A stretch of DNA of 64,000 nt from an uncultured Acidobacteriia bacterium (lineage in GTDB: Bacteria > Acidobacteriota > Terriglobia > Bryobacterales > Bryobacteraceae). Of this stretch, positions 32,615 through 45,193 are shown piece after piece. The position numbers and the translations under genes are program-made. The notes below the pieces were generated by a model that saw nothing but the letters and a program-made list of their open reading frames with translations, was not told the origin of the DNA and searched no databases. The stretch is taken from assembly GCA_903923395.1 (NCBI GenBank), contig CAIXXM010000146.1, positions 62,001-126,000 of the forward strand. Direction: 5' to 3'. Numbering within the stretch: position 1 is the first letter of the stretch; every line of letters starts with the position of its first letter.

Positions 32615-33091
32615 ATGGAACCGAAACACGTGCGGGATTCCGCGTCTGAATACTCCGAGCTCGCGCTTCCGAATGATGCGAACACGCTGGGCAATCTTCT
32701 GGGCGGGCGGATCATGCATCTAGTGGATATCGCAGGGGCGATCGCCGCGATGAAGCATGCCAGAAATCCGGTGGTGACCGCTTCCATGGACAACATGCAG
32801 TTCATTCATCCGGTGAAGATTGGCCAGTGGGTGCGGTTGAAGTCCAGCGTGAACCGGGCGTTCCGGACTTCGATGGAGGTCGGGGTCAAGGTTTGGGTGG
32901 AAGACCTGATGACGGGGAAGCAGCAGCACGTGTCGTCGGCGTTTCTGACGTTCGTGGCTCTGGACGTCAACGGGAAGGCGACGCCGGTGCCGCCGATTGT
33001 TCCAGAGACAGAGGAAGAGCAGCGGCGGTATGAAGAGGCTGGCGCGAGAAGGGAATACCGGCTGACGTTGCGGGGAAAGACGCAGGCCTAG
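32615..33091 (+). CDS. acyl-CoA thioesterase (hotdog fold, YciA-type)
   Basis: A 158 aa single hotdog-domain thioesterase that hydrolyses acyl-CoAs. It has PNDANTLGNLLGGRIMHLVDIAGAIA with the catalytic Asp/Asn region. FIHPVKIGQWVRLKSSV and VSSAFLTFVALD are further typical blocks. Length matches the family. Its TAG stop shares the palindrome CTAG with the stop of the convergent membrane coiled-coil gene. Confidence 0.92.
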   Translation: MEPKHVRDSASEYSELALPNDANTLGNLLGGRIMHLVDIAGAIAAMKHARNPVVTASMDNMQFIHPVKIGQWVRLKSSVNRAFRTSMEVGVKVWVEDLMTGKQQHVSSAFLTFVALDVNGKATPVPPIVPETEEEQRRYEEAGARREYRLTLRGKTQA

Positions 33092-33369
33092 CGGGATTCT
33101 TCGATGTGCTTGAGGCGCGCATCGAAGACTTGTTCCATGCGGAACATCTCGCCACGGAGGAGATCGCGGGTGTCCAGGATCTTGCGGTCTGTTTCGGTAA
33201 AGCGCCGTTCCACCTCATCGAACCGCCGGTTGATATCCGAACGGAATTCACTCATGCGAACGTTCATGTCGCTGAGACGCGAGTTATTTACGAGAACGCC
33301 GATGACAACGGCGAGCGTGGGAAACGCAGCGGTGGCGACTGCGGTCACGAGTGGGGCGTCGAAAGCCAT
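33088..33369 (-). CDS. small membrane-anchored coiled-coil protein, copy 1
   Basis: A 93 aa protein. One N-terminal membrane helix (about residues 6-26, VTAVATAAFPTLAVVIGVLV) is followed by a long charged heptad-type coiled coil (about 35-93, with RRFDEVERRFTETDRK). It is nearly identical to the next gene on the same strand. It lacks seven residues present there. No enzymatic motif is seen. Such proteins may oligomerise at the membrane, but the role is unknown. Confidence 0.75.
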   Translation of the reverse strand: MAFDAPLVTAVATAAFPTLAVVIGVLVNNSRLSDMNVRMSEFRSDINRRFDEVERRFTETDRKILDTRDLLRGEMFRMEQVFDARLKHIEESR

Positions 33370-33393: not shown

Positions 33394-33696
33394 TTAGCGG
33401 GATTCTTCGATGTGCTTCAGTCGGGCGTCGAAGACCTGCTCCATGCGGAACAGTTCGCCGCGGAGGAGATCGCGGGTGTCCAGGATTTTGCGGTCTGTTT
33501 CGGTAAACCTGCGGTCCGTCTCAGCAAATCTGCGGTCGACTTCATCGAACCGCCGGTTGATATCCGCCCGGAATTCACCTATTCGAACGTTGACATCGCC
33601 GAGGCGCGAATTATTGACAAGGATGCCGATGACAACGGCAACGGTGGGAAACGCAGCGGTGCCGACTGCGGTCACAAGTGGGGCGTCGAAAGCCAT
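33394..33696 (-). CDS. small membrane-anchored coiled-coil protein, copy 2
   Basis: A 100 aa tandem paralogue of the neighbouring gene. It has the same membrane helix and the same C-terminus (FDARLKHIEESR), with one extra heptad (RFAETDR before RFTETDR) in the coiled coil. The 21-base expansion keeps heptad phase, so the coil lengthens by exactly two helical turns. The two genes are separated by 24 bases and probably co-transcribed. Function unknown. Confidence 0.75.
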   Translation of the reverse strand: MAFDAPLVTAVGTAAFPTVAVVIGILVNNSRLGDVNVRIGEFRADINRRFDEVDRRFAETDRRFTETDRKILDTRDLLRGELFRMEQVFDARLKHIEESR

Positions 33697-36300: not shown

Positions 36301-37587
36301 GTGATTGATTTACTGGCGTTTCCGCTGCTGCTTGCCGCTGTTCCGCGCGCGCCGGTCTACTCCACTGACGTCGCGCCCATCCTCTTGCAGAACTGTGCTG
36401 GTTGTCACCACGCGGGTGAAGTTGCGCCGTTTCCTCTCACCACGTATGAAGACGCGAAGAAGCGGGCGAAGTTAATTGCAGAGGTCACACGCACCCGGTA
36501 TATGCCTCCCTGGCAACCTTCCGGGCCGCCCCATCACTATGCCGGGGAACGCCGTTTGAGTGATGTCCAAATCGCGACACTGGCCAAGTGGGCAGAGGTT
36601 GGCGCGCCGGAAGGCAACCCCGCGAAGACGCCCCCGGTACCTGCTTATTCAGACGGCTGGAAGCTTGGTCCACCGGATTTGACCGTTGCCCTGCCGAAAC
36701 CGTTTACCATCCCCGCGGAGGGTGGCGATGTCTATGAGTGCTTCACCGTTCCCATGAACCTGGCGAAGACGCGCTATCTGCGGGCGTTTGAGTTTCGTCC
36801 CTCCAACCGCAAGGCCGTGCACCACGCCATTCTGTTTACTGACCATTCCCGCGTGAAGCTGGACGCATCTTATCCCTGCTTCGGCACCATTGGCACCTTG
36901 CCTTCCGCGGGCTTGGGCGGCTGGTCGCCGGGCAATGGACCCACCAGGATGTATGAGGACGCGGAGATCACGGTGGAACAGGGCTCGCGGCTCATCGCAC
37001 AAGTCCACTATCACCCTTCCGGCAAAGAGGAACAAGACCAGTGGCAGGTGGGCTTGTACTTCACAGACAAAGCGCCGTCGAAACATGTTGCAGATGTCGG
37101 GCTGAGTTCCAAGTTGATCGACATACCAGCCGGCGAAGCGCACTATGTGGTGCGGGATCACTTCGTGCTCCCCATTGCTGTTTATGCCGTGGGAGTTATT
37201 CCGCACGCGCACTACGTTTGCCGCGGGATGCATGGCTGGGCAACTCTGCCCGATGGTCGGAAGATTGACCTGTTGACCATCAAAGACTGGAACTTCAGCT
37301 GGCAGGATCAGTACAGATACAGCAAGCCAATCCTGCTGCCGGAGGATACACGTGTCGAGATGGAGTTCGTATATGACAACTCGGATGCAAACCCCCGGAA
37401 CCCGCACCGTCCCGCGCAGAGAGTCACCTGGGGCGCGGGCGTGGAAGATGAAATGGCAGGCCTGCATATTCAAGCCATTCCCGTGCACATGGAAGAGCTT
37501 TCCGAATTAGGAAAAGCACTCTGGGGGAAAGTGATGCGGTCTGTAGGTGGAAGCTTTTACAGGTTACCCGCGACGCCGCCGCAGTAG
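36301..37587 (+). CDS. c-type heme plus copper type II monooxygenase-like protein
   Basis: A 428 aa exported protein with a GTG start. The N-terminal domain has a heme c motif (NCAGCHHAGEVAPF, Cys32, Cys35, His36) and the distal block RTRYMPPWQP. The remaining about 300 residues resemble the two-lobed PHM-type copper monooxygenase fold, with candidate copper ligands in KAVHHAILF, AQVHYHP and IPHAHYVCRGM. Heme-to-copper electron transfer within one chain is plausible. The substrate is unknown. The gene ends 31 bases inside the convergent phosphopantetheinyl transferase gene. Confidence 0.82.
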   Translation: MIDLLAFPLLLAAVPRAPVYSTDVAPILLQNCAGCHHAGEVAPFPLTTYEDAKKRAKLIAEVTRTRYMPPWQPSGPPHHYAGERRLSDVQIATLAKWAEVGAPEGNPAKTPPVPAYSDGWKLGPPDLTVALPKPFTIPAEGGDVYECFTVPMNLAKTRYLRAFEFRPSNRKAVHHAILFTDHSRVKLDASYPCFGTIGTLPSAGLGGWSPGNGPTRMYEDAEITVEQGSRLIAQVHYHPSGKEEQDQWQVGLYFTDKAPSKHVADVGLSSKLIDIPAGEAHYVVRDHFVLPIAVYAVGVIPHAHYVCRGMHGWATLPDGRKIDLLTIKDWNFSWQDQYRYSKPILLPEDTRVEMEFVYDNSDANPRNPHRPAQRVTWGAGVEDEMAGLHIQAIPVHMEELSELGKALWGKVMRSVGGSFYRLPATPPQ

Positions 37588-38132
37588 TTTGGCACCGGCA
37601 CCGCGCCATCTGCGGCAAGGCTGGCGAAATGCCCGGCTGGCGCTGCGATGACGATAGTCCGGACCTCTTCCGCCACGGGGTCAAAGAGCGCACCACCGCG
37701 CGCCTTGGAGGCGGCTTCACGAAGCGTCCACCGCTGGTGCTGCGCGTCACGGTCCGCGGGTATGTCTTTTTCGCCCAAACGCTGCAGCAGCTTGCCGATA
37801 TCTGTGTTTCCCCGGAGGCGTTCGATATCTATCCCCACAGGAACATCACGGGACACAGCAATCATGGCGTATTCGTCACAGTGCGAAAGGTTGAACTGCA
37901 GGCCATCGGTGAAGGGTTTGCCGTGGTCATTGACGTGGAAGAGAATGTCGAGCGGAGGAATCTCCAAATAAGTGGCAAGAATGGTCCGCAGCGCCGAATG
38001 TGCGCGTGTCCAGCGGACGCTGGAGATCTCATGTACAAACCTCGCGGCGCGCTGCTGTTCGGCTTCCGACAACACCACTTCCCGGGGTTCCCGCAGGTCT
38101 ATGGTCCAGATATCAATCAGCGAGGTGAGCAC
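37557..38132 (-). CDS. 4'-phosphopantetheinyl transferase (Sfp-type)
   Basis: A 191 aa enzyme that converts apo carrier proteins to holo form by transferring phosphopantetheine from CoA. The GTG start is preceded by GGAAGA and overlaps the upstream gene end by 20 bases. Motifs are NLSHCDEYAMIAVSR, VGIDIERL (metal Asp/Glu) and WTLREAASKARG. The last corresponds to the W-x-x-K-E-A motif with Arg in place of Lys. It is somewhat short for the family. It closes a four-gene operon whose first gene encodes a carrier protein domain, its obvious target. Confidence 0.88.
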   Translation of the reverse strand: MLTSLIDIWTIDLREPREVVLSEAEQQRAARFVHEISSVRWTRAHSALRTILATYLEIPPLDILFHVNDHGKPFTDGLQFNLSHCDEYAMIAVSRDVPVGIDIERLRGNTDIGKLLQRLGEKDIPADRDAQHQRWTLREAASKARGGALFDPVAEEVRTIVIAAPAGHFASLAADGAVPVPNYCGGVAGNL

Positions 38133-40065
38133 GGATATCTTCCAGTAATTCCTGCCCTGCCTGTTCCAGATATAAGTGGCCGCCCGGGAACATACGGAGC
38201 GAAAAAGCCCCGGTCGTTTCTTTGCTCCAAAGCTCCAGATACTCCTGTGGAACACCGCTATCTTCCGCGCCGCCATAGACGCGCAGAGGTAGCGTCAGAA
38301 TCTCGCCCGGTTGATAAACATATCTTCGGTAGAGTGCCGTGTCCGCGCGGAAAAGAGGCAGCACCGCTTCCAGAACCTTCTGCGGCCGCCCTGGATTCAT
38401 TCTTGCCAGACTGGCCAGCAGCTCTTCGTCCGAAGGATCAGGGCTCACCTGTGTTCTTAAGTGCGGTGCCCTTGCGCCGGAAACAAAGAGTTTCTCCGGC
38501 AGCGGGCCACCAGCCTTCTGCAGCCGGCGGGTAAATTCAAAAGCCAGTCCAGCGCCCATGCTGTGACCGAAGAAGGCGAAGCGGCCTGTCAACTTCGGTG
38601 CCACATGTTCCATCAAGGCATTCAGCATCGCTTCTGGTGTTGCAAGCGGCGTCTCGGATGCGCGGCCTTCCCGCCCCGGATATTGCACCGCTGTTACGCC
38701 GGACCACTTACGGAAAACGTTGGGCCCCGTTGCGGCGTAGGGGAAACATATTAACTTGACCGGACCCGGTGCGCCTTCCATTGGCACCAGCCAATCCGCC
38801 GCGCGCTTATTGCGGATTTTCAGCGCCAGCATCTTCTTCTGTTCCAGCGTTAGTGCGGCGGTAACAGAGCCCTTCACCGGACGCGGCTTGCGCTTGGGCA
38901 TTTGCTCGCGCAGGTAGTCTTCGAAGGGTTCGGCGGTGAGATGTCTGGCGTAGTCCAATGCGGCTTTGCGTGAGGCTGACGCGATTTCATTCCAATGGGC
39001 TTCATCATGCGTCAGGCTGGCGGTCGCTTCGATCCACGGTGCCATGTTCTGGGGCGGTGTCTCGCCTTTCGGCACCATCTGCTGGTCAAGACTGCCATGA
39101 AAGCGGCCGATCTGTTGGACGGGAAGGATATAGGGTACGCCCAGCTTCGCTTCGCCCAGTCCCCCGGTGTCACTGGCAATTACCGGGATTCCCCGCAGCA
39201 TGGCCTCCTGCACTACGCGCGCCCGGGCTTCTGCCCAGATGGAAGGCACCAGCAGGACGCGTGTACGCTCAAAGACCACGTCGATGTTATCCACGGGTTC
39301 CAGAACGGTCACGTTGGGCAGGGCATTCAGTTTGGCAAGATCTTCATCTGTCGTGCCCCAACTTCTAACGCCGGCGAACTTGGTGTCCGGCAATGCCCGG
39401 GCGATATCGAGAAACAGATCAATTCCTTTGACCAGACAGGGATTGATCAGCGTCACGAACTCATTACTGTAACGTCCGCGCTGTGGCCAGGGGCCGCCAT
39501 CCATCAATGAGATAGGGAAGTGGATTGCCGGAATCCCGCTGTGCTCCCGGATATAATCCGCGACATACTGACTTACACCCACCACGCCATCGGCTTCCCG
39601 GATGGAGTTGGTCTTTTCTTCACTCGGAAACGCGCAATCCGGACCAAAAGGAAGCGCGACAGTCGCGCGGCCGAAGTAGACCACAAAAGCATTACTTTCC
39701 AATGCGGCCCGCAGCAGGATTTGCGCTGTATCATCCGTGGAACATACGATGACGTCGGGCTGGAAGGCTTCGATTTGCCGCGCAAAATAAGCCCGCAGGT
39801 TCGGACTCTCCGTGCAGGTATGAACATCCACGCCATGCAGACGGAAACGGACCACCCCGTGCTCGCCGATATACGCGGAGATATCGCGCTTCGCCAGATC
39901 GCTGAGTAATTCCCTGTGCGCTTCCGGACCATGCGCCGCGGTGCGTGCCACAACACTAACGGCGTGCCCGCGTTCCGCCAGCGCCTCCATAAGCAGGCGG
40001 TTGGACTTATCGCCGCCACCCTGCGCGGGATAGTAAGTCGAGTTATGGGCCAGCAGGAACCGCAT
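38113..40065 (-). CDS. glycosyltransferase fused to type II thioesterase
   Basis: A 650 aa two-domain protein. Residues about 1-395 are a GT-B/GT4 glycosyltransferase (MRFLLAHNSTYYPAQGGGDK, VPSIWAEARARVVQEAMLRG, IPVIASDTGGLGE). Residues about 406-420 form a basic helix (LTLEQKKMLALKIRNKR). Residues about 430-650 are an alpha/beta-hydrolase like type II thioesterases of NRPS/PKS systems, with nucleophile Ser502 in GHSMGAGLAFE, an Asp in YGGAEDSG and a His in PGGHLYLE. Such thioesterases release or proofread acyl groups on carrier proteins. The fusion suggests that sugar transfer and release occur on the same tethered substrate. It starts 1 base after the neighbouring glycosyltransferase stop. 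Confidence 0.87.
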   Translation of the reverse strand: MRFLLAHNSTYYPAQGGGDKSNRLLMEALAERGHAVSVVARTAAHGPEAHRELLSDLAKRDISAYIGEHGVVRFRLHGVDVHTCTESPNLRAYFARQIEAFQPDVIVCSTDDTAQILLRAALESNAFVVYFGRATVALPFGPDCAFPSEEKTNSIREADGVVGVSQYVADYIREHSGIPAIHFPISLMDGGPWPQRGRYSNEFVTLINPCLVKGIDLFLDIARALPDTKFAGVRSWGTTDEDLAKLNALPNVTVLEPVDNIDVVFERTRVLLVPSIWAEARARVVQEAMLRGIPVIASDTGGLGEAKLGVPYILPVQQIGRFHGSLDQQMVPKGETPPQNMAPWIEATASLTHDEAHWNEIASASRKAALDYARHLTAEPFEDYLREQMPKRKPRPVKGSVTAALTLEQKKMLALKIRNKRAADWLVPMEGAPGPVKLICFPYAATGPNVFRKWSGVTAVQYPGREGRASETPLATPEAMLNALMEHVAPKLTGRFAFFGHSMGAGLAFEFTRRLQKAGGPLPEKLFVSGARAPHLRTQVSPDPSDEELLASLARMNPGRPQKVLEAVLPLFRADTALYRRYVYQPGEILTLPLRVYGGAEDSGVPQEYLELWSKETTGAFSLRMFPGGHLYLEQAGQELLEDIRAHLAD

Positions 40066-40066
40066 G

Positions 40067-41326
40067 TTATTGACCTGTCTTCTTCAGCTTCCGGAGTAAC
40101 AGCGCGCGCTTTTCCGGTGTTAGGGCTTCGAGTGAGACTGCGGGTTTCACCGGTACCGCCGCCGCAGGCTGCAGACTTTCGAGCCAGCGCTGCAACTCGC
40201 CCGCGTCGAGATGATTGACGAACTGCACGGCTGCTTTGCGGGAATCCCCGGAAACCTTCTGATAAGTATCCTGGTTCTCCAGCAGCGTGCTCAGCCAAAG
40301 GTTCCACACAGCGCCGTTTTGCGGCCGCACGACGGGCACTGGCATATGCCGTTCATCGAAGCGGTCTTCATACTTGATAATCGGCGAGACGGGAGCCAGA
40401 TAACTCACGCCCAGAGTGGATTCCGAAAGCCCCCCATAATCACTTGCGATCACCGGAATGCCCCGCAGCATGGCCTCCATCACGATCAGGCCAAAACCTT
40501 CGTACCAAAGGGAAGGCATGAGCAGTATTTGCGTTTCGCGCAACACCTCGTCAATGTCTTTCACGGCATCGCGCAAAGTCACATTGGGGATGGCCCGCAG
40601 CAGTGCCTCATCTTCACCCGTGGTTCCCCAGCCGCGCAGGCCCGTGAAGGGAACTGCCGGAAACGCACGCGCCAGATCCGCAAATACACTGATGCCCTTC
40701 ACGGCGCAGGGGTTGATCATGGTGACCGTACCCTTGCCCCAGTTCTGATAAAACGGCCACGGAGCAGCACCATACATCGGCGGATGAATTACCTTCGACT
40801 TCACGCCGACAAACTTCTCCACGTGTGCCGCGACGCTGTGGCTGATGGTGACGATCCCGGCCGCACCGCGCAGGAGCTTGGTGGCCGTCTCATCCTGGTT
40901 CCAACTCTCCGTCCCGAAAGGAAAGAACTGCGGCGTATGACCGAGATAAACCACTTTGCCCGGAGCGGAGCGGAAAGCCTCCCGCAACAGGCCATGGCTC
41001 AGGTCTTCGGAAGACACCAGCACCCAATCCGGATTCCACGTCTCAATCTGCGCCCGCAACACCAGCGGCCGCGCTGCAGGTGCGTCTACGTTGAAAAAGC
41101 GGATACCTTCCGGCGATACGGTTTCCGCACCGCCTTCGAGCGACTGTCCGCGAAGTTCAGCCTCGAAGCGGGCGCGCTCCTCCGGCGTGGTCTTTTCGGC
41201 GGCAGCGGCGACCACCCTGCACTCATGCCCGTGCGTGGCCAGATGCCGCAGCCAGACCAGATTGCTGCGCGTCGAGCCACCCCTCGGCGGAACATGTGAC
41301 GCATTCGAGGCCAGCAGTACCTTCAA
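40067..41326 (-). CDS. GT4-type glycosyltransferase with linker-like C-terminus
   Basis: About 419 aa. The N-terminus is MKVLLASNASHVPPRGGSTR if the TTG at 41326 is used, about 10 bases after GGAGAG. A GTG three codons upstream (41335) is the alternative but sits too close to that site. It is a GT-B fold with PSLWYEGFGLIVMEAMLRG and IPVIASDYGGLSE for nucleotide-sugar binding. It ends LTPEKRALLLRKLKK, very like the helix found between carrier and condensation domains in NRPSs. It overlaps or abuts both neighbours and is paralogous to the glycosyltransferase half of the next gene. Confidence 0.86.
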   Translation of the reverse strand: MKVLLASNASHVPPRGGSTRSNLVWLRHLATHGHECRVVAAAAEKTTPEERARFEAELRGQSLEGGAETVSPEGIRFFNVDAPAARPLVLRAQIETWNPDWVLVSSEDLSHGLLREAFRSAPGKVVYLGHTPQFFPFGTESWNQDETATKLLRGAAGIVTISHSVAAHVEKFVGVKSKVIHPPMYGAAPWPFYQNWGKGTVTMINPCAVKGISVFADLARAFPAVPFTGLRGWGTTGEDEALLRAIPNVTLRDAVKDIDEVLRETQILLMPSLWYEGFGLIVMEAMLRGIPVIASDYGGLSESTLGVSYLAPVSPIIKYEDRFDERHMPVPVVRPQNGAVWNLWLSTLLENQDTYQKVSGDSRKAAVQFVNHLDAGELQRWLESLQPAAAVPVKPAVSLEALTPEKRALLLRKLKKTGQ

Positions 41327-41327
41327 G

Positions 41328-43295
41328 CTACTCACTCTCCAACAAAGCCCGCAATTCTTCTTCGGACAGGTTGTCGATTTCCGCCAGCAGCCGGTCGACC
41401 TCTTCCGGATCCGCCTGCGCAAGTTCCACAGCCGCAGCCATGCCCGCCACCGTCAGGCGGCCGGAGTAGATGATGTCGAGCGAAAGGTCCACGCCGGTCT
41501 CTTGCCGTATGCGCGAAAGCAACTGCACCGCCAGCAGAGAATGGCCGCCGAGATCGAAGAAATCCTCATCCAGGCCCGGCGTGGGGATGTGCAGCACTTC
41601 GGCCCAAATACCGGCGACCGTGCGCTCCAGAGGCGACCCCACAGCCTCGCCCGCCGCCAGATGCGCATTTCGGGCCCGCCGCTCTTCCGCGATGGCGCTC
41701 AGAATCTGCCCGGGGCGGCTCAACTCCGCCGCAATGTGACCGTAGTTGACCTTGGACGCAGTGGCTTCGGTGGAGACTTTCGGCGTTTCCGCGATCAATT
41801 CCACCTTGGCATCCGGCACATACTGCAGAGCCGCGCAGGCTTCCGCGGATAATCTTGTTCCTACCGCCCCGATAAACTGCCGGGCCGGTTGATTCCTGGG
41901 ACCCTCCACCACGCCCACCTCGACGGCGCTCTTCCCCGCCGCTACTGCAAGCTGACCGGCGTACGCGAGCATCTGGTGTTCAACACCTCTGCCCAGCGCG
42001 CGGCAGCTCAAGAGTATGCTGTCGACGAGCAAAGTGTCCGCGGTCCAGCGCAGAAACATCGCGCCCACCAGACCGTATGACCCAAAGCGGTCCGTCACAT
42101 CGACCGTCAGGCACTGCACGGGGTCACTGCCCACCAGCGCCGAGACTTCCGCCTCCGTGCGCCGGATCAGCGTCGTATTCATCTGGTTCGTGCGTTGCGT
42201 CAACTGCGCCACACGCGCCACCTGACCGGGTGTTACGGGCTGTATATGAACGTCCACATGCAGCTGGGCAATGAAATCACCCAGAGAGCCTGCTGTCTTC
42301 TCGACTTTCCCGCGCTCCGCCTGCTGCCGGTAGCTTTCATTGCGCTTGCGGTCTTCTTCGGTCACCCGAAGCTGATCGAAGATCCAGACGTGGTTCAGAA
42401 AATGGGGGATCTCGTCGTCATGGTGGGGCAGCGTGAGGCAGGTCACTTCGGGATACCCGGCTTCCACTTCGCCAGTTTCCTTCGGGTTGTCATCCACAAA
42501 GACAAAACTGTCCAGGCCCAGGTTCAGTTCCGCAGCCATTGCCGCCAGATGCGGACCCTTCGGTGCCCAGTCAATCCGGTGTGAGAGGAAATCTTCCCAC
42601 TGCAGAGGCATTTCCGGGTGGACCCGGAAAGTCTCCGCCACATCCTCGTAGTTGTTCTTGCTGGTCAGGGTCAGCAGCATTCCCGCATCCCGGCGCGCCA
42701 GCATAAACTGCTGCAGATTGCGGCGGGCGGCATCGATGACCACACCCTCCGGCCCGTCTTCCCCGCAGGTGCCCTTCCACAGAGTGTTGTCGCAATCGAG
42801 TGCAATCACCTTGGCAGGACGCACCCGCAGCGCATGCAACATTCTCGCCACGGTGGTGCCCAGGGCCGCGAAGAACAGCGGGGTGTAGGGAACATCCCCC
42901 AGGTCTTCGGCGTGGGCGTCGTAGATGTCATTGACGGGATAGCGCTGCAGGATTTCCGCCGAACGGACTACGTAGACGGAATCGCCCGCCAGGGTTGCCG
43001 CAGCGGCTTCTTCATCGAGCGCGTGGACCGCGGGGCAAAACACAATCAGCACCGGACCGCGCCCGGCAAGCGCCTTCGCCAGTTCGCCCGTAAATTCCGG
43101 ACTCAGCTTCGACGCGCGCAGCAGAATCACGTTCGGTGCTGTAGCCGGGTCCAGCACGGACTGAATTACCTGGTTATAAGGGGCAAACCGGATTTCATCA
43201 TTCCAGCCCAGTTGTCCCCGCCAGAATTCCAGCGCGTCGGCAATCGGATCAGCTGTGAAATCGGCGGCTATCGCGATTCCGTTCGAGGCAGTCAT
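41328..43295 (-). CDS. FkbH-like HAD-IIIC enzyme fused to an acyl carrier protein
   Basis: A 655 aa protein. The N-terminal part (about residues 1-160) is the FkbH-type leader domain. HAD motif I follows as IALDCDNTLWKGTCGEDG (Asp167, Asp169), then TLTSKNNYEDV, FVFVDDNPKE and a GNAT-like region (about 350-500, QLTQRTNQMNTTLIRRT). A carrier protein forms the end, with the phosphopantetheine Ser586 in DLGGHSLLAVQLL. Known FkbH/OzmB-type enzymes load a three-carbon glyceryl unit from 1,3-bisphosphoglycerate onto a carrier. The tail EEVDRLLAEIDNLSEEELR resembles NRPS inter-protein tails. It heads the operon, about 107 bases from the divergent TonB receptor. Confidence 0.9.
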   Translation of the reverse strand: MTASNGIAIAADFTADPIADALEFWRGQLGWNDEIRFAPYNQVIQSVLDPATAPNVILLRASKLSPEFTGELAKALAGRGPVLIVFCPAVHALDEEAAAATLAGDSVYVVRSAEILQRYPVNDIYDAHAEDLGDVPYTPLFFAALGTTVARMLHALRVRPAKVIALDCDNTLWKGTCGEDGPEGVVIDAARRNLQQFMLARRDAGMLLTLTSKNNYEDVAETFRVHPEMPLQWEDFLSHRIDWAPKGPHLAAMAAELNLGLDSFVFVDDNPKETGEVEAGYPEVTCLTLPHHDDEIPHFLNHVWIFDQLRVTEEDRKRNESYRQQAERGKVEKTAGSLGDFIAQLHVDVHIQPVTPGQVARVAQLTQRTNQMNTTLIRRTEAEVSALVGSDPVQCLTVDVTDRFGSYGLVGAMFLRWTADTLLVDSILLSCRALGRGVEHQMLAYAGQLAVAAGKSAVEVGVVEGPRNQPARQFIGAVGTRLSAEACAALQYVPDAKVELIAETPKVSTEATASKVNYGHIAAELSRPGQILSAIAEERRARNAHLAAGEAVGSPLERTVAGIWAEVLHIPTPGLDEDFFDLGGHSLLAVQLLSRIRQETGVDLSLDIIYSGRLTVAGMAAAVELAQADPEEVDRLLAEIDNLSEEELRALLESE

Positions 43296-43402: not shown

Positions 43403-45193
43403 ATGCGTATTTCAGCTGTATTAGCTTTGTGCGGAACCGCACTTTTTGCACAAACGACCGTTCCACAGAAGGAAACGGTGATTGTAACTGGCACGGCCAC
43501 GCCGATCCCTCTGGCGGAGGCGGACCGGGATGTTTCCAGTTTGTCCCTGCCGGAAGCAGAGCGTCCCCTGCTTTTCAACTGGTTTGATCTGTTGCAGACC
43601 GATCCCGCGCTCGATCTGCGCCAGCGCTCCGGCGGGGCGTTTCAGGCGGACCTCTCGATCCGCGGCGCTTCGTTCGGACAGACGTTGATCCTGCTGAACG
43701 GCATGCGGATCAGCGATGTGCAGTCCGGCCACTTGAGTTTGGATGCCCCTCTGCCCTTTGAGGCCATTGGCAGTGTTGAGGTTCTCAAGGGTTCGGGGTC
43801 CACGCTTTACGGGTCAGATGCGGTGGGTGGTGTGGTGAACCTGCGCACGCGCAAGCCGGAGACTTCGGAACTGCGCCTGCTGGCGGGTGGCGGGAACGAC
43901 GGCTTCAACCAGCAGCATGCTATCGGGGATTATGTGCGGGGCAATCTGCTGGAGGAAGTGGCCATCGCGCGCGATTTCTCCACCGGTTTTGCCGAAGACC
44001 GCGACTATCGCAATCTCGCCATCAGTTCGCTCACCAGCATGACGACGAAACTGGGGTCATCCTCTGCTTTGCTGGCCTATAGTGACCGCCCCTACGGTGC
44101 CAACCTGTTCTACGGCAATTACCCCTCCTGGGAACGCGACAAGACCTGGTTCGCCAGCGGTCATCAGGATCTGGGCGAAAACACCGAAGCCAGCTTTGCC
44201 TTCCGCCGCCATACGGATCTCTTTGTGTTGTTCCGCTACAGTCCGCAAATCTATACCAACCGGCATGCCGTGGAAAGCTGGCAGGGCGACCTTCGCAGGC
44301 ATAACAAACTGCCCTTCCACGCCACTCTCAGCTACGGTGTGGAAGGTCTTGCGGAGGCGATTGACTCCACCAATCTGGGCCATCATGACCGCAAGCGCGG
44401 TTCCGGGTACGTGATGTATGACATCCGCTCCGCCAAGCGTTTCTCCCTCACTGCCGGAATTCGGGAGGAGTTCTATGGCGCGCATCAGGTGGCGCATTCG
44501 CCGACCATCAGCGGCGGTGCCTGGATCAATGCCCGGGTGAAACTGCGCGCGGCCGCGAGCCGTGCCTTCCGCCTGCCCAGCTACACCGATCTTTACTACA
44601 GCGATCCGGCCAACCAGGGCAATCCCAATCTGAAGCCGGAATCCGCTACAAGTTATGAGGGCGGCGCGGATCTCTACTGGAACCGCTCCATACATGCGGC
44701 AATTACTGTCTTCCAGCGGCGCGATACCAATGGCATTGACTATGTGCGGGCCACGCCGAATGACATCTGGAAAGCAACGAATTTCGACAAGCTGCATTTC
44801 ACCGGCGTGGAGACTTCCACGATCTTTGAACTGCCCCGCCATGACCGGTTGACCCTCGCGTTTTCCGCGCTGCGCGGCATTGACGCCAACTCCCAGGTAG
44901 CGCTCAGCAAATATGCCTTCAACTATCCCGTGCACAGTGGCACAGCGGAGTACCGGGCGAATCTTGGAAGCCAGGTGGTGGCGCGAACCAGACTCGGTGT
45001 GATTGACCGTCTGGGCACCTCGCCCTATGCGCTGTGGGATGCTTCCGCGGCCCGCTCTGGCGGATTGCTGCGTCCCTTCGTACAATTGACCAACATCACC
45101 AGTACGAATTATCAGGAGATTGCCGGAGTCATCATGCCAAAGCGAAGTTTTGTGATCGGCCTCGAAATAGCGCTGCGGAGTTTGCAGAAGTGA
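43403..45193 (+). CDS. TonB-dependent receptor (BtuB/FepA-like)
   Basis: A 596 aa outer-membrane receptor. The ATG at 43403 gives a signal peptide (MRISAVLALCGTALFAQ), and a TonB-box-like strand (KETVIVTGTA) follows. The plug domain has DLSIRGASFGQTLILLNGMR and LKGSGSTLYGSDAVGGVVNL. The barrel continues to a C-terminal short strand. It imports a bound ligand using TonB energy. A cobalamin- or siderophore-type ligand is possible, but no riboswitch or metal box is seen upstream. It is divergent from the FkbH operon and overlaps the next gene by 4 bases. Confidence 0.9.
   Translation: MRISAVLALCGTALFAQTTVPQKETVIVTGTATPIPLAEADRDVSSLSLPEAERPLLFNWFDLLQTDPALDLRQRSGGAFQADLSIRGASFGQTLILLNGMRISDVQSGHLSLDAPLPFEAIGSVEVLKGSGSTLYGSDAVGGVVNLRTRKPETSELRLLAGGGNDGFNQQHAIGDYVRGNLLEEVAIARDFSTGFAEDRDYRNLAISSLTSMTTKLGSSSALLAYSDRPYGANLFYGNYPSWERDKTWFASGHQDLGENTEASFAFRRHTDLFVLFRYSPQIYTNRHAVESWQGDLRRHNKLPFHATLSYGVEGLAEAIDSTNLGHHDRKRGSGYVMYDIRSAKRFSLTAGIREEFYGAHQVAHSPTISGGAWINARVKLRAAASRAFRLPSYTDLYYSDPANQGNPNLKPESATSYEGGADLYWNRSIHAAITVFQRRDTNGIDYVRATPNDIWKATNFDKLHFTGVETSTIFELPRHDRLTLAFSALRGIDANSQVALSKYAFNYPVHSGTAEYRANLGSQVVARTRLGVIDRLGTSPYALWDASAARSGGLLRPFVQLTNITSTNYQEIAGVIMPKRSFVIGLEIALRSLQK

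Follow-up and report, generated by a model that had tools for sequence, protein, structure and literature searches.

FkbH enzymes that load glycerate onto a peptidyl carrier protein (PCP) are known from several assembly lines. The starter modules of vioprolide and corramycin, in the available text of the reports (PMC10099666, PMC8949500), are organized FAAL-ACP-C-FkbH/HAD-T; FkbH-PCP loading of glycerate replaces the adenylation (A) domain, and a non-ribosomal peptide synthetase (NRPS) then extends the chain. We describe here a locus from an uncultured bacterium of the Bryobacteraceae in which FkbH-PCP is followed by two glycosyltransferases (GTs) and a thioesterase (TE), instead. It lies in a 64,000-nucleotide stretch of contig CAIXXM010000146.1—‘the window’—and itself has no FAAL, acyl carrier protein (ACP) or condensation (C) domain.

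Other relatives differ in other ways. For dysinosin, suomilide and varlaxin, the accessible parts of PMC6520454 and PMC10143770 propose that FkbH-loaded glycerate is tailored within the loading module, by methyltransferase or sulfotransferase domains. Such on-carrier tailoring supports the view, developed below, that glycerate can be glycosylated while tethered; in the portions describing these pathways, however, the glycerate is then extended into a peptide, and AerI, a GT, is linked with the Choi unit rather than with glycerate. In the FkbH-ACP systems for methoxymalonyl units and tetronates, as the consulted sections of PMC7489565 have it, a stand-alone ACP feeds a polyketide synthase (PKS), and oxidation or FabH-like release occurs where we predict glycosylation. 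The mycobacterial GpgS/GpgP pathway, in the available extracts of PMC4555173, yields the product class that we predict, (di)glycosyl-glycerate, but does so from 3-phosphoglycerate, with a separate phosphatase, and with neither carrier protein nor thioester. BshA, a UDP-GlcNAc:malate GT4 enzyme, likewise uses the GT4 fold to glycosylate a small hydroxy acid, and is among the nearest solved structures to the GTs described here, but its acceptor is the free acid, no carrier protein takes part, and identity is only ~15%. We found no description of FkbH together with GT and TE in the open-licence literature (subscription papers lay outside the search). Thiotemplate glycosylation usually takes place late, on the released product; here, the GTs come directly after the carrier, and are either joined to the release domain in one protein or closely linked with it. 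Glycerate loading by FkbH-PCP is familiar; what may be new in principle is a chain built on a carrier by glycosylation alone.

The locus is a tight operon on the minus strand, organized as follows:

41328..43295, minus strand: gene A, FkbH (HAD-type glyceryl loader) plus peptidyl carrier protein, 655 aa
41352..41390, minus strand: C-terminal tail of A, LLAEIDNLSEEEL, putative helix for docking to the GTs
40067..41326, minus strand: gene B, GT4 glycosyltransferase, 419 aa, TTG start with GGAG upstream
38113..40065, minus strand: gene C, another GT4 glycosyltransferase, joined to a type II-like thioesterase, 650 aa
37557..38132, minus strand: gene D, divergent, putatively Sfp-type 4'-phosphopantetheinyl transferase (PPTase), 191 aa, GTG start

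All four reading frames are open. We read them as a minimal thiotemplate pathway, in which the PCP would be charged with a glyceryl unit, sugars would be added to that unit on the carrier, and the TE would set free a (di)glycosyl-glycerate; we put the probability of this at roughly 0.55. We favor it because the order of the genes is kept in 52 of 67 loci, their catalytic motifs are retained, C domains are absent from 26 of 45 genomes that carry the operon, and the GTs and TE occur fused. The initial annotation had named four overlapping genes with these domains. The genes and their domains are indeed present (Pfam and NCBIfam matches), but only C and D overlap, by 20 nt; A and B, and B and C, are 1 nt apart, and D is likelier to start at 38132 than at 38276. 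Chance or mis-called domains were considered and rejected: FkbH, PCP, GT and TE all score above their curated cut-offs, D attains that of its family, and 52 loci show the same set.

Gene A matches the FkbH model TIGR01686 over aa 161–482 (278 bits; cut-off 146.65), and a PP-binding domain over aa 559–623 (60 bits; cut-off 20.8). It contains DCDNTLW (aa 167–173), SCRALG (aa 430–435) and the carrier serine motif GGHSL (aa 583–587); D-x-D-x-T we take to be the conserved HAD motif, and SCR the C-terminal motif of FkbH. Both D-x-D-x-T and SCR[AV]LG are present in 67 of 68 aligned rows, the miss being L161, a carrier-only match, and the carrier serine is kept in 67/68, the remaining row being gapped. 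A is the only FkbH of the window genome. Behind the carrier comes a tail of the EIEGLSDEEVRALL type, which a pattern search finds at 48 of the 52 operon loci. Three of the four misses (L024, L128, L135) carry the tail by eye, and the fourth, L027, ends inside the motif; L058 has it as well, and the post-carrier segment of the NRPS-type loci L142 and L143 does not. Because the tail resembles, as we presume, the docking segments of assembly lines, it may be a docking helix that engages the GTs.

Gene B matches GT4 Pfam families (Glyco_trans_1_4, 50 bits), and gene C matches GT4 followed by Thioesterase PF00975 (113 bits). Both GTs have the GT4 Pfam domains and the E-x7-E motif by which the class is recognized: EGFGLIVME in B (aa 276–284) and EARARVVQE in C (aa 279–287). 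Among B-type GTs (GTb), E-x7-E occurs in 54 of 55 aligned rows and EGFGL in 53; among C-type GTs (GTc), E-x7-E and EARxR occur in all 47. By alignment, therefore, the two GTs have distinct conserved signatures; their mutual identity of 37% points to a probable old duplication. B ends in a helix, LTPEKRALLL, that we presume to be akin to NRPS inter-domain linkers. The structure models of B (mean pLDDT 88.7, pTM 0.86) and C (mean pLDDT 86.0, pTM 0.59) resemble GT4 enzymes, with MshA and BshA as the top GT matches; these are also the nearest solved folds of B, and one BshA entry contains UDP and L-malate. This likeness to an enzyme solved with a small hydroxy acid is suggestive only, because GT4 folds are much alike. 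No GpgS model appears among the NCBIfam matches of B and C, both of which match GT4 families (the search for GpgS covered these two proteins).

The TE of gene C has its nucleophile in GHSMG (aa 500–504), its Asp in GAEDSG and its His in GGHLYL; in the aligned rows, Ser is kept in 47/47, Asp in 43/47 and His in 45/47. In sequence and in fold it is nearest to the type II thioesterases RifR, RedJ and BorB, and with PF00975 and Ser-Asp-His it has the attributes of that type save one: those enzymes are discrete, stand-alone proteins, and this one is fused to a GT. At 12 of the 52 loci the fusion goes further, with GTb, GTc and TE all in one stop-free frame (those of L007 and L151 lie within longer open frames, and their exact starts are uncertain). 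Because it is the sole thioesterase of the operon, and is joined to the last GT, we infer that it is the releasing enzyme. Hydrolysis would be its simplest outcome; transfer to another acceptor is possible.

Every catalytic step, like the sugars and the product, is a prediction, and we picture the steps in this way. Phosphopantetheine would be placed on the carrier serine of A, by D or by another PPTase. The FkbH part of A would load D-glyceryl from phosphoglycerate (1,3-bisphosphoglycerate in published FkbH systems) onto its own carrier. B, probably guided by the tail of A, would add a sugar to a hydroxyl of the tethered glyceryl, and the GT of C would add a second sugar or glycosylate the other hydroxyl, instead. 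The fused TE would then free the product, most simply (di)glycosyl-glycerate.

Homologous loci were collected by scanning species genomes with A, and by searching 121 family genomes, among them that of the window. The best 80 of 212 scan loci were considered, and 33 of these were kept for the architecture count, the other 47 having no match to the GT of B or C (blastp 1e-4). With 41 further genome stretches, minus 8 duplicates, plus the window, this makes 67 loci; all were chosen by likeness to FkbH-PCP, and the counts are conditional on that likeness. Some partial matches (G040, G043, G096, G062:C148) were left out. The order FkbH-PCP-GTb-GTc-TE is kept in 52 of the 67, the window included, and the GT proteins compared are 44–58% identical to those of the window. 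Of the 15 incomplete loci, eight run into a contig edge (L006, L016, L018, L028, L044, L120, L144, L152) and three are of the NRPS type (L058, L142, L143); the other four we return to below. The contig of L028 is labelled Nevskia soli (Pseudomonadota) but is the same as the L132 contig of G084, a genome of the window's family, and the label looks mis-assigned. In a phylum sample that held few members of the family, the GT was found at E 1e-45 in 2 of 395 other genomes, neither with an FkbH match within the 20 kb examined around the GT.

Thirty-four of the 52 complete loci have no match to ketosynthase (KS), A, C or FAAL domains (E 1e-6) and at least 3 kb of DNA on both sides, counted upstream from the FkbH match. 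Only three, L010, L017 and L156, have any such match, and it is always FAAL and C before FkbH-PCP. PKS or NRPS genes are not regular neighbors, therefore, of this operon, and the expectation that its gene order is conserved without them was right for the three-gene core; it was wrong for the PPTase, which adjoins the operon at 12 of the 52 loci.

The window itself has no KS, NRPS A, C or FAAL match anywhere in its 64 kb (tblastn E 1e-3, queries from L010 and L058). Its genome (6.15 Mb, completeness 98.5%) contains neither a Condensation domain nor a FAAL C-terminal domain (PF23024), and the three KS frames, at 402–478 aa, are of a size that fits stand-alone enzymes of fatty-acid synthesis. A hidden megasynthase was thus sought and not found, adenylation domains being searched for in the window and not genome-wide. 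The combination that marks an NRPS or PKS cluster, C or KS with A or acyltransferase (AT) domains, is missing from the locus, and the initial annotation, which had seen no KS, A or C there, was to this extent borne out. Forty-five of the 52 complete loci belong to genomes of the 121-genome family sample, and 26 of these 45, the window's among them, have no C domain anywhere (20 of 35, if only genomes with completeness at least 90 and contamination at most 5 are counted). The operon might, in principle, supply a precursor or tailoring unit to an unlinked megasynthase, and the other 19 genomes do have C domains somewhere; given the 26 that have none, and an operon with a thioesterase of its own, we rate this as very improbable.

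Where, then, did such an operon come from? At L010, L017 and L156, FAAL and C are fused in front of FkbH-PCP, and a GT and GT-TE like the window's follow downstream; at L010 and L017 Pfam shows an ACP between the two, so that these proteins have the same FAAL-ACP-C-FkbH-PCP order as the vioprolide and corramycin modules do in the published text at hand, and L156 shares with them FAAL and C before FkbH-PCP. L006 has a C domain at its contig edge. The window genome, with no C and no FAAL C-terminal domain, falls outside this type. In a 43-row FkbH tree, the 27 rows without FAAL-C stand apart, with support 98/96, from the NRPS-type rows and the four FAAL/C rows together, and the 31 operon-type rows separate from the 12 NRPS-type rows with support 95/93; a 94-row tree agrees (supports 96 and 92). 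The FAAL forms at L010, L017 and L156 branch between the NRPS FkbHs and the stand-alone clade. Both trees were midpoint-rooted for drawing, and direction comes from the use of the NRPS rows as an outgroup. The simplest history suggested by the split, so rooted, is that FAAL-ACP-C was lost once, before the lineage of the window spread, and the tree and the minority FAAL-C form together suggest that the operon is related to megasynthases, as an assembly line cut down in size. An acyl-glycerate module, FAAL-ACP-C-FkbH-PCP with GT and GT-TE downstream, would have lost its front end, and sugar transfer would therefore be the only chain-building reaction left.

Could the acyl chain have been kept by other means? 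If the product were an acylated glycosyl-glycerate, the FAAL and C of L010, L017 and L156, and the C of L006, would be its visible signs, and in the available sections of PMC4555173 mycobacteria octanoylate both glucosyl- and diglucosylglycerate. In the window the chain would have to be added in trans, by an unlinked enzyme; its genome has no C domain and no FAAL C-terminal domain, and across 32 clustered loci no neighbor is widely shared beyond the core, the 2-hydroxyacid dehydrogenase and Gfo/Idh/MocA; some small clusters are unannotated, and an acyltransferase might just conceivably be shared among these. Such a glycolipid seems to us rather unlikely. Nor is it easy to see the operon as the functionless remnant of a decayed NRPS cluster, for which the implied loss of FAAL-ACP-C, and the four loci that lost or lack the GT set, might be cited: the genes are open and tightly spaced, and catalytic residues are kept in nearly all aligned rows at 44–58% GT-protein identity to the window. 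We give this scarcely any credence.

Two other Acidobacteria have the same GT fused to NRPS modules. L058 (Holophagales) encodes a C-FkbH-PCP protein and, next to it, a GT-C-A-PCP-C-A-PCP-C protein; L161 encodes GT-C-A-PCP-C-A-PCP-TE as a single protein. In both the GT precedes a C domain, and in L058 it comes directly behind the glyceryl-loading carrier; this domain order is best explained if the GT acts on a carrier-bound unit. The fullest version of the thiotemplate pathway would be a carrier line whose sole chain-building reaction is glycosylation: two docked GTs extend glyceryl-S-PCP, the TE off-loads the product, and the whole derives from a lipo-NRPS module by the shedding of activation and condensation. 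We would bet on this version at slightly worse than even odds. If it is true, then together with L058 and L161 it makes the glycosyltransferase an in-line assembly-line domain that works on a tethered intermediate.

A number of observations count against the thiotemplate pathway in either version. Generic GT4 folds, at ~15% identity to BshA, do not fix the acceptor. The GTb of L017 reads E-x7-Q, and the aligned TEs of L037 and L049 have gaps at the positions of Asp and His. The role for which type II thioesterases are chiefly known is editing. D scores only at its family cut-off, and the 19 operon genomes with C domains belong here, too. L009, L021, L127 and L146 keep FkbH-PCP without the full GT-GT-TE set despite 3.1–7.4 kb of sequence downstream: in L021 a GTc-like gene is present but no TE, and the other three have no GT match; loss, or another use of FkbH-PCP, is possible in these. 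Finally, the glyceryl might be not the acceptor of sugars but the group transferred, to a glycan made by the GTs. The TE or FkbH-PCP would then add a glyceryl ester to a short glycan, and the product would be a glycerate-decorated saccharide. The same genes would suffice for this; the TE-GT fusion would put acyl transfer beside the glycan; and a Wzt-like ABC transporter gene is found near the operon in L004, with relatives near L003, L007 and L014. That transporter cluster covers only 4 of the 32 clustered loci, however, the TE resembles hydrolytic type II enzymes, and in L058 and L161 the same GT precedes NRPS condensation modules. We consider this arrangement unlikely.

The PPTase deserves separate mention. 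D scores 25.1 bits against ACPS (cut-off 25) and 75.7 bits against the HetI model, well below the equivalog cut-off of 370, and so, on profile scores, it appears to be a divergent but recognisable PPTase; it contains the motifs GIDIE and WTLREAASK. As a core member of the operon it was rejected: because it is adjacent at so few loci, the conserved core, in the loci compared, is the three genes A to C, and the PPTase an optional neighbor. D is nonetheless the only PF01648 match in the window genome, where AcpS (TIGR00516) was not found. Of the 121 family genomes, 115 have a match, most of them a far better one; the two genus mates of the window genome (genus g1, with genomes G000, G041 and G097) show one weak match or none. 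D might serve fatty-acid synthesis as well, or the genus might have a divergent AcpS.

The self-contained route put forward in the initial annotation thus survives the comparison with PKS and NRPS neighbors, in amended form: its core is three genes, its ancestry lies, we suggest, in a lipo-NRPS starter module, and its loading, tethered glycosylation and release stay predicted steps. What lends the locus its wider interest is that a GT-GT-TE set has been handed down in many genera of a single family, unaccompanied by condensation machinery. If the thiotemplate pathway is real, glycosylation on a carrier can be studied in it on a very small and testable scale; it reaches glycosyl-glycerates through a thioester, unlike GpgS/GpgP, and shows clearly how an assembly line can evolve by reduction. 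It would also predict a class of compound from the Bryobacteraceae and their kin—soil bacteria whose chemistry has, to our knowledge, been little explored.

Neighboring genes vary. At eight loci (L008, L012, L013, L015, L020, L025, L039, L145), all of one sub-clade, a D-2-hydroxyacid dehydrogenase and then a Gfo/Idh/MocA oxidoreductase lie downstream; with the dehydrogenase at 8 of 52 loci, and not at the window, the pair was rejected as part of the core. Among the matches shown, this dehydrogenase reaches no NCBIfam equivalog cut-off. On the other side of the window's operon, divergent from it, is a receptor gene:

43403..45193, plus strand: TonB-dependent receptor (Plug, TonB_dep_Rec)

Its frame is open from 43313, and 43403 is the probable start, that of a signal peptide. 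Among the flank-compared loci (tblastn 1e-6), a TonB receptor is near the operon only in the window, L002, L003 and L004. Being confined to this four-row clade, it was rejected as a core member, and is possibly a clade-specific neighbor.

A second FkbH family came to light in the same scan: FkbH-PCP-TE proteins of ~1000 aa, from cyanobacteria and Planctomycetes (L032, L033, L034, L041, L042, L045, L051, L054, L057, L059, and also L047). In 10 of the 11 complete proteins the nucleophile motif has Cys (GGMCAGG and similar), and in L047 it has Ser; no KS, A or C match was found near these genes within the DNA examined. With glyceryl-PCP as its substrate, such a Cys-type TE could be a transferase or form a lactone.

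Elsewhere in the window, two tandem open reading frames on the minus strand (33088–33369 and 33394–33696; 93 and 100 aa) are very similar, both start MAFDAPLVTAV, and are probably the result of a recent duplication.

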